Source: Desulforamulus ruminis DSM 2154 (GTDB lineage: Bacteria > Bacillota > Desulfotomaculia > Desulfotomaculales > Desulfotomaculaceae). From it: DNA of 64,000 bases. Shown in pieces: positions 52,480 to 56,874 of the stretch (the first letter of the stretch is position 1; each line of letters starts with the position of its first letter). The stretch is taken from assembly GCF_000215085.1 (NCBI RefSeq), contig NC_015589.1:3422120-3486119 (forward strand), in the 5' to 3' direction. The notes under the pieces are model-generated. The model did no database searches. It saw only the letters and a program-made list of their open reading frames with translations, and was not told the origin of the DNA. The position numbers and the translations under genes were made by a program.

Positions 52480-52959
52480 TTGAAAACCATTACCGCATTC
52501 TTCTCTTCCCGGGATCAGGCCGAACACGCCGTGCGAGAATTGCGAAACAAAGGCTTCGACAAAGAAATCTCTGTTTTAGCAAAGGGACAGGAGGAAGGTA
52601 ATAACAGCGGTCGTACCTCTAACTACACCGGTGGAGACAGCATCACCAACGGTACTTCCAGTGGTGCTGCCATCGGTGGTTTGGCTGGCCTTGCCCTGGG
52701 TGCCGGCGCTTTAGCCATTCCCGGTTTTGGGCCTTTAATCGCCGCCGGTCCTATTGCCGCCACCCTCTCCGGTGCTGCCACCGGGGGGATTGCCGGGGGA
52801 TTGGTTGATTATGGCATCCCTGCTGAAAAGGGTCGGGAATATGAGGACCGCATTAAACAGGGCAAGGTTATGGTATCGGTAAAAGCGGATGACAACCGGG
52901 CCCAGGAAGCTGCTCAGGTCTTGGGACAGCAGGGTGGCCAAAACGTTGAAACCCACTAA
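52480..52959 (+). CDS. General stress protein 17M-like protein with Gly-rich hydrophobic core
   Basis: 159 residues. The N-terminal ~35 residues (MKTITAFFSSRDQAEHAVRE) form a ferredoxin-like small domain seen in general stress 17M/YflT-type proteins. A long Gly/Ala-rich hydrophobic stretch (about 65-110) of glycine-zipper character follows, and then a second small domain ending in VSVKADDNRAQEAAQVL. TTG at 52480 has AAAAAGGAGG 8 nt upstream. The hydrophobic centre may insert in the membrane. Stress induction is inferred from family only. Confidence 0.72.
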   Translation: MKTITAFFSSRDQAEHAVRELRNKGFDKEISVLAKGQEEGNNSGRTSNYTGGDSITNGTSSGAAIGGLAGLALGAGALAIPGFGPLIAAGPIAATLSGAATGGIAGGLVDYGIPAEKGREYEDRIKQGKVMVSVKADDNRAQEAAQVLGQQGGQNVETH

Positions 52960-55556: not shown

Positions 55557-55688
55557 AAGGCAGTAGACCGAAACTTACCTCTTTAGGGGGTCAACAGGTA
55601 GCGAAAAAATGTTAAATTTTTTGCATAGGATTCTTTTTTTGGAAAAGAATATGGGTAGACTTGAACCATATTCTAAGGAGGTAAAAAA

Positions 55689-56450
55689 ATGACCCAACAA
55701 ATTCAGCAATTGCAAACCCGCATTAGCTCTCTGCGCAATGATTTAAACAGCGTAGAACAAATGTGCAATCAAATCAGACAAGGGGAGCAAAACAACCAGC
55801 AGCAACTCCAGAGCATGTCCCAGGCGGAAGGCAACGCCACTCAGCAGTTGCAGCGCATTAGCCAGACCTGTCAGAGAATTAACCAGGAATTAAGCCAGAT
55901 TGCCAGCCTTTCTCAGCAAATGGCTTCCCAAGGCTACCAAACCACCCAGTTTGGTTCCGCTCAGTTCCCAACCTATGGCCAGTTCGGGCAGGGACAACAA
56001 TATGGAACCTCTTCCAATGCCTTTATTGCTCAGACCCAGCAACCCGGTCAGTTTGGAGGCAGCTTGACCAACGTGATTAGTTCCGCTACCTCTCCCCAAA
56101 GTTCTCAATCCTACGGTCAGTATCAATCTGGCGGAACCCTGGGCAATCTAATGGGTGGTTCCGGTTTATCTCAAAGCATTCCTTCTTACCAGACCACCGG
56201 AAGCATGAGCAACGTGATTAGCGCCTCTACCTCTCCGCAATTTGGACAAAATCAAAGTTTTGGACAATATACCCAACAAGGGCAGTTTGGACAAACTCAA
56301 TTTGGCCAGAGCCAGTATAATCAAGGACAGTTTGGCCAGAATCAAATGGGCCAAGCCTCCCAGAAAATGGGACAAAACTTAGGAACTTACGGACTAAGTT
56401 CTGCTCAAGCCAACTATCTGAACCAACAGGGACAGCAATATCAGTTCTAA
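55689..56450 (+). CDS. Q/G/S/F-rich low-complexity protein with QFGQ repeats
   Basis: 253 residues, unrelated to any family I recognise. Residues about 1-85 form a Gln-rich coiled coil (MTQQIQQLQTRISSLRNDLN; QQLQSMSQAEGN) with two Cys. From about 86 on the sequence is nearly free of charged residues and made of Gln, Gly, Ser, Asn, Tyr and Phe, with repeated QFGQ/QFGQxQ units, two copies of NVISSATSPQ / NVISASTSPQ, and short spacer repeats. The composition is that of prion-like or phase-separating domains. AAGGAGG precedes ATG. A structural role in a spore coat or a cell-surface layer is possible but not shown. Confidence 0.8.
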   Translation: MTQQIQQLQTRISSLRNDLNSVEQMCNQIRQGEQNNQQQLQSMSQAEGNATQQLQRISQTCQRINQELSQIASLSQQMASQGYQTTQFGSAQFPTYGQFGQGQQYGTSSNAFIAQTQQPGQFGGSLTNVISSATSPQSSQSYGQYQSGGTLGNLMGGSGLSQSIPSYQTTGSMSNVISASTSPQFGQNQSFGQYTQQGQFGQTQFGQSQYNQGQFGQNQMGQASQKMGQNLGTYGLSSAQANYLNQQGQQYQF

Positions 56451-56480: not shown

Positions 56481-56510
56481 AGGGCCTTGCTAAAGGCCCT
56501 TATTATTTTG
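56481..56510 (+). terminator. Terminator of the QFGQ-repeat protein gene
   Basis: AGGGCCTT-GCTA-AAGGCCCT, 8 pairs, followed by TATTATTTTG. Confidence 0.8.
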
Positions 56511-56634
56511 CCCATTATTGGCTTCATTTACAAAACTAGGATTATTTAGACAATTTACACCCCTTAACAAAGATTAGTCTACGGAAGTATAATGAAAGCA
56601 CAAATTCGGAAAGTATTTACAGGAGGTGTAGAAA

Positions 56635-56874
56635 TTGGCAAAAATTTTAAAAGAGGGCGCTGCTTATAATCAACGGGATATCATTGATATGCTGGTTGAA
56701 TTCTCCGGTTTTAAAGACCGGGTTATCAAAAAATTCAAGGATGTGGCCAGGGAGTTCGATGGAAAGCCCAACGAACACGACCTCTGGGTAAATCTTTACC
56801 TCATTTCCAGTGACTATGCCGATGATCAACATGCCCGCCGCAAAAGCAGCGACCCAATCCAAAAAATTTCCTAG
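56635..56874 (+). CDS. Hypothetical protein, 79 residues
   Basis: Reads MAKILKEGAAYNQRDIIDML and ends SSDPIQKIS. Soluble, charged and helical, with aromatic residues in the middle (DLWVNLYLISSDYADD). TTG at 56635 has AGGAGGTG 6 nt upstream. No family recognised. It stands alone between the repeat-protein terminator and a CGGATTT repeat. Confidence 0.65.
   Translation: MAKILKEGAAYNQRDIIDMLVEFSGFKDRVIKKFKDVAREFDGKPNEHDLWVNLYLISSDYADDQHARRKSSDPIQKIS

Follow-up and report, generated by a model that had tools for sequence, protein, structure and literature searches.

A coiled-coil protein with an almost uncharged, FG- and Gln-rich disordered tail, near-universal in an endospore-forming class and preceded by a sigma-G-like promoter

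Scaffolds that join an oligomerising domain to sticky disordered tails are already known elsewhere. The closest described domains are those of the nucleoporin FG and FUS type, which share with the protein presented here FG or QFGQ repeats, aromatic stickers, Q/G/S spacers and an almost complete lack of charge, and which are frequently coupled to a coiled coil or another oligomerising domain, as is the case here. These domains are eukaryotic, however, and as far as tested they are unrelated by descent to our protein; no FG-domain family was among the Pfam families listed for it. In a Gram-positive spore former, C. botulinum, Rho likewise carries a Q-rich, disordered, prion-like stretch, but that domain belongs to a conserved enzyme and is sporadic among species (PMC4703818, PMC6400439), whereas here the tail makes up the bulk of a dedicated protein that is near-universal and apparently spore-linked. 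The gamma-type SASPs (SspE, PF04259) resemble the present family in predicted forespore control by sigma-G and in a Gln-rich sequence of low complexity; they differ in that our family does not match their profile, contains aromatic residues and a long coiled coil, and is nearly devoid of charge. The alpha/beta-type SASP genes (PF00269) have the same promoter type in the same genomes, but their products are short DNA-binding proteins without a coiled coil or an FG tail. In the libraries and papers that we searched, we found no description of a dedicated scaffold of this kind that is near-universal in an endospore-forming class and stands under a forespore-type promoter.

The gene lies in a window of 64,000 nucleotides (the whole stretch of DNA that was analysed, to which all positions refer) from a Desulforamulus-type genome of 3.97 Mb in one contig. 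On the forward strand, which carries all stranded features described below, an ATG-initiated reading frame at 55689..56450 encodes 253 residues, a coiled coil followed by a prion-like tail; 105 of the 113 class genomes have an orthologue. An earlier note, made from the sequence alone, had described a Gln-rich coiled coil at the N-terminus, and both features expected of such a structure, heptad periodicity and a predicted helix, were found. The coiled coil spans residues 2-81 (55692..55931). A 3-4 heptad pattern runs without interruption from I5 to S75 with nearly all core positions hydrophobic, the polar core residues being E33, N36 and E47; the hydrophobic period is 3.50, as strong in none of 1000 shuffles, and AlphaFold2 predicts a single helix over residues 2-81 (pLDDT 80-98). 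In an alignment of 28 diverse sequences, E33, E47, Q52 and L54 are invariant. The length of the coiled coil is equal in 110 of 120 sequences, against tails of 42 to 242 residues, and where it changes by -14 (two cases) or +14 (one case) the difference is one two-heptad unit. The idea that length varies by heptads only holds in part, since the other changes, of -20 and -31, do not correspond to whole heptads. The centre of the coiled coil is a 14-residue unit, xExxNxxQLQxLxQ, which across 120 homologues normally occurs in two copies; there are three in genome G157 (locus L253) and one fewer in G058 and G059. The Glu of this unit falls on core positions and is the residue found invariant above (E33, E47); perhaps these core Glu residues form a buried layer that senses pH or metal.

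Beyond residue 83, AlphaFold2 predicts nothing reliable, with pLDDT mostly 32-44. Residues 86-253 (55944..56447) make up a disordered, low-charge tail rich in Q, G, S, F and Y, for which disorder is predicted by a pLDDT of about 35. The almost charge-free FG/Q composition that the earlier note had reported was confirmed: the 168 residues include one charged residue, a Lys, and no Asp or Glu, together with 24% Q, 17% G, 15% S, 11 Phe and 10 Tyr (12.5% Phe/Tyr), eight FG and five QFGQ motifs. Q, N, S, G, Y, F and T account for 81.5% of the tail; of the window's 56 ORFs with a length of 150 aa or more, only one other reaches even 57% in these residues over 150 aa. The tail therefore shows the low charge, aromatic content, Q/G/S/N-richness and predicted disorder expected of an FG or prion-like domain. 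The two NVIS(S/A)xTSPQ units described before are present, NVISSATSPQ at 56070..56099 and NVISASTSPQ at 56211..56240, and the stretch corresponding to the former is strongly variable even within the genus. Across the class the tails are barely alignable between families, with a median charge of 2.4% (90% of tails at 5% or less), aromatics at 8.8-19.1% and cysteine in none of 99. The QFGQ repeats are a trait of the lineage, and the conserved features of the family are the coiled coil and the composition of the tail. Nine Desulforamulus orthologues do share a C-terminal motif around LGTYGLSSAQANY (56379..56417), which reads (T/S)YGLSSAQASYLS in most relatives and whose conservation is confined to the genus (loci L004-L011). 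Comparable short, clade-specific C-terminal motifs occur elsewhere, FNTN.D and YxPNYTGVLSN in one family each (L250, L257, L258; L078-L082), and such motifs could be docking sites.

In close species pairs, dN/dS is mostly 0.02-0.06 for the coiled coil and mostly 0.1-0.3 for the tail. These values indicate that 55689-56450 is a real gene, and together with orthologues and synteny they rule out an orphan or artefact. They also place the coiled coil under strong purifying selection, with a tail that changes fast while keeping its composition. A disordered tail that acts by many weak contacts would be expected to show this pattern, in which a tail of constrained composition is carried by a conserved, oligomer-like stem.

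The gene is present at one locus in each of the nine genomes of the genus, and a profile of the genus proteins matched in 95 of 113 class genomes; relatives named by it include Desulforamulus aquiferis, D. putei, D. aeronauticus and an uncultured Desulfotomaculum. Inspection of the slot beside h79, the 79-aa gene downstream, yielded ten further orthologues among the apparent exceptions, giving the 105 genomes cited above. An apparent loss in a genus of six genomes (G060-G065) was rejected on this basis, the profile having missed a gene whose coiled coil is 20 residues shorter. The gene arrangement speE, YflT-like gene, TIM barrel, oligopeptide-binding protein, coiled-coil gene, h79 recurs in most of 20 contexts sampled over the order, and at least one of these genes adjoins in all 20. 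Over the phylum, a profile of the coiled-coil alignment (A4) matched in 77 of 398 genomes, and most of the 20 out-of-class relatives inspected likewise have a Q/G/S/Y/F-rich tail behind a coiled coil. The architecture, which the earlier note had thought rare in bacteria, is thus near-universal in the class and recurs in the phylum. Membership of a known family was rejected: searches of Pfam and NCBIfam yielded no match above the cut-offs and, below them, coiled-coil noise, and profile searches of the PDB gave weak matches only, mostly to coiled coils, so that no known folded family emerged. In several genomes, weak second matches fall in ORFs of 86-110 aa that resemble tail-less paralogues consisting of the coiled coil only (G037:C13:6589, G019:C22:56468, G105:C54:68558, G106:C8:2367, G107:C10:24789 and G096:C1:968135).

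SASP genes are classic sigma-G targets, and in this class their promoters mostly read RCATA-N17/18-CATAMTA (a site in 19 of 30 genes). Upstream of our gene a forespore promoter is predicted at 55623..55651, with a -35 GCATA (55623-55627), a spacer of 17 nt and a -10 AAGAATA (55645-55651), or, in an alternative reading, GCATA-N14-GAAAAGAATA; within the genus it is the conserved element of an otherwise variable intergenic region. A two-block search of 99 upstream regions returned the class motif CCAcTAATA-N14/15-gn[AG][AC]ATAATA, located some 40 nt upstream of the start codon, with a score of 648 against 29-34 in shuffles. The spacing (17-18) and the -10 (CATAMTA) of the family promoters match those of the class SASP genes. 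An independent matrix, trained solely on SASP promoters of the same class, gives 6.7 bits at the window promoter and exceeds the shuffled 95th percentile in 36% of the family, compared with 4% for the next downstream gene and 0 of 18 for spoIVA. A relaxed pattern, NNAT[AG]-N17/18-[CA]A[TC]A[AC]TA, which was picked after the motif had been seen, occurs in 70 of 100 family members, 4 of 98 downstream neighbours, 0 of 18 spoIVA regions and 27 of 2000 shuffles (1.4%). By this relaxed pattern, those 70 of 100 members fit the sigma-G arrangement, a CATAMTA -10 with its downstream A placed 17-18 nt from a GHATR-like -35. Several out-of-class relatives also have such sites, 5 of 20 passing the 95% threshold. 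These results suggest forespore expression from a sigma-G-like promoter.

Some features of the promoter complicate the choice of sigma factor. In C. difficile, sigma-G promoters keep an A downstream in the -10 whereas sigma-F promoters have a G upstream of it (PMC3789822). The class motif carries the sigma-G-type A, and the promoter of the window's genus (GYATA-N14-GAAAAGAATA) has both A and G, so that an overlap of sigma-F and sigma-G is likely there. Control by sigma-F, or mixed control, is possible because the -35 of most members is TAATA, as opposed to RCATA in SASP genes, and because the genus has the -10 variant AAGAATA. Even sigma-E is still conceivable, given that the -35 contains ATA and that 48 of 78 genes carry a T after the -10. 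The spoIVA upstream regions provided no clear sigma-E motif usable for training; many class members have a conserved GGAGGGATGC-like stretch about 60-100 nt upstream of spoIVA (L210-L225).

The sporulation link that had been suspected is supported by this conserved promoter and by co-occurrence with the sporulation gene spoIVA. Among near-complete class genomes, the gene is absent from both that lack SpoIVA and present in 77 of 78 that have it (about p = 0.001, calculated by hand, a test that shared ancestry weakens). In near-complete genomes of the phylum, SpoIVA is found in 65 of 66 with a match to the coiled-coil profile as against 307 of 356 overall (Fisher p = 2.7e-4, with kinship ignored and the test again weakened by shared ancestry). 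We infer that the family is linked to spores. A surfaceome study of D. reducens, which covers vegetative cells only, contains no relevant mention that we found.

As a tentative explanation, to which we assign a probability of roughly 0.45, we propose that the gene encodes a forespore-expressed scaffold in which coiled-coil rods with sticky disordered tails form a network in the spore. Transcription in the forespore would depend on RNA polymerase with sigma-G, possibly also with sigma-F. The coiled coil of about 80 residues would then drive oligomerisation into a rod of a few chains, each rod displaying several disordered, uncharged tails in which Phe and Tyr (9-19% class-wide) act as stickers and Gln, Gly, Ser and Thr as spacers. 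The multivalency of many tails per rod may produce a sticky network, in the form of a condensate or gel, as the spore develops, and this network would help to build or immobilise the spore interior. The predicted helix and heptad pattern of the coiled coil, the predicted disorder, the low charge, the purifying selection, the class-wide conservation and the sigma-G-like promoter are computational results, from which we infer forespore expression and oligomerisation of the protein; that it forms a network, resides in the spore core and plays a role in dormancy or resistance is what we hypothesise. An intracellular forespore product fits, because neither a signal peptide nor a membrane helix is apparent by eye. 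The protein might nevertheless lie at the spore surface, where the C. difficile sigma-G products CotG and SodA occur (PMC3789822). The broader proposition, that the endospores of the whole class hold a dedicated forespore condensate or gel scaffold whose prion-like network aids the dormancy of the interior, we consider doubtful.

The same promoter would serve a Gln-rich storage protein, a functional analogue of the gamma-type SASPs of Bacillus that stays in the core until germination and is then broken down for its amino acids, the coiled coil serving only to keep it compact. This accommodates a Gln-rich tail that keeps composition and not sequence, and the position may be vacant, for at E ≤ 0.01 the PF04259 profile matches in none of 46 class genomes, the host included, all of which have alpha/beta SASPs and the protease GPR. 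PF04259 is, however, also missing from the best Pfam matches of our protein. Known GPR cleavage sites contain Glu, and a tail without acidic residues offers no site of that type. Moreover, storage needs neither conserved aromatics, which never fall below 8.8%, nor a strongly selected coiled coil, and we judge it unlikely. Low-charge repeats rich in Q, Y, G and S are common in structural matrices, and the tails might instead cross-link or self-assemble outside the core, in the coat, the exosporium or an appendage. The surface products of sigma-G in C. difficile mentioned above lend this some weight (PMC3789822), but coat genes are typically under sigma-E or sigma-K, the family's promoter agrees with the forespore type and not with spoIVA, no signal peptide or transmembrane helix is apparent, and the tails are free of cysteine; a surface structure is about as improbable as storage.

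The composition of the tail also resembles that of known prion-like domains, and such domains do exist in bacteria, as in C. botulinum Rho (PMC4703818), so a functional prion or amyloid might be envisaged in which the tail switches to an aggregate that propagates itself and acts in regulation. Bacterial prion-like domains are mostly sporadic across species, however (PMC6400439), and this family is near-universal; the conserved spacing of aromatics and glycines suits reversible sticky contacts at least equally. A true prion is therefore possible but the least supported of these readings, and to our mind very remote. The family bears on a long-standing question, why the interior of a spore loses its mobility and can last for years, for which it offers a conserved, unannotated, single-gene candidate; its architecture is that of condensate scaffolds elsewhere, and its promoter points to the forespore. 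The family also shows that bacterial prion-like tails need not be sporadic inserts but can be near-universal in a lineage, with their composition conserved. With one copy in most genomes, the gene should lend itself to a direct test of its role.

The DNA around the reading frame has several further features. A strong ribosome-binding site of its own, as claimed previously, is evident in AAGGAGG (55675..55681), 7 nt upstream of the ATG, and orthologues are also preceded by strong sites. For the terminator claimed with it, a terminator-like hairpin was found: AGGGCCTTGCTAAAGGCCCT followed by TATTATTTTG occupies 56481..56510 (the hairpin itself 56481-56500), about 30 nt past the stop codon; taken as a class, such sites are barely commoner in the window (3) than expected from shuffles (2.4). 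A perfect 9-bp inverted repeat, AGAATATGG (55646-55654) and CCATATTCT (55666-55674), overlaps the -10 element and ends beside the ribosome-binding site; it is a possible operator. This dyad (55646-55674) persists in most Desulforamulus species while its sequence changes. As an RNA hairpin, the 5' region folds with z = -2.3 in the window and below -2 in most genus members; with a class mean of -0.5, the hairpin is supported within the genus but not class-wide.

Downstream, h79 (56635-56874) encodes a Lys/Glu-rich protein of 79-80 aa that matches no Pfam family, is found in 103 of 113 class genomes with about 70% column identity, and among 199 phylum genomes outside the class occurs in one further genus only (g102), where it stands alone. 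It is preceded at 56561-56593 by a sigma-A-type promoter, CCCTTAACA-N15-nnTATAAT, which is unusually invariant class-wide; it was found in most of 98 genomes, with a motif score of 1005 where shuffles reach 32-39. Because h79 has this conserved promoter of its own, it and the coiled-coil gene are probably separate units; an operon or partnership is further unsupported in that h79 occurs without the coiled-coil gene and adjoins none of the 20 out-of-class relatives. The CCC preceding TTAACA in the h79 promoter suggests a further regulator or contact. On the other side of the coiled-coil gene, at 52480-52959, lies the gene for a Gly-rich YflT/DUF1269-like stress protein, just below the Pfam cut-off and syntenic across the order.
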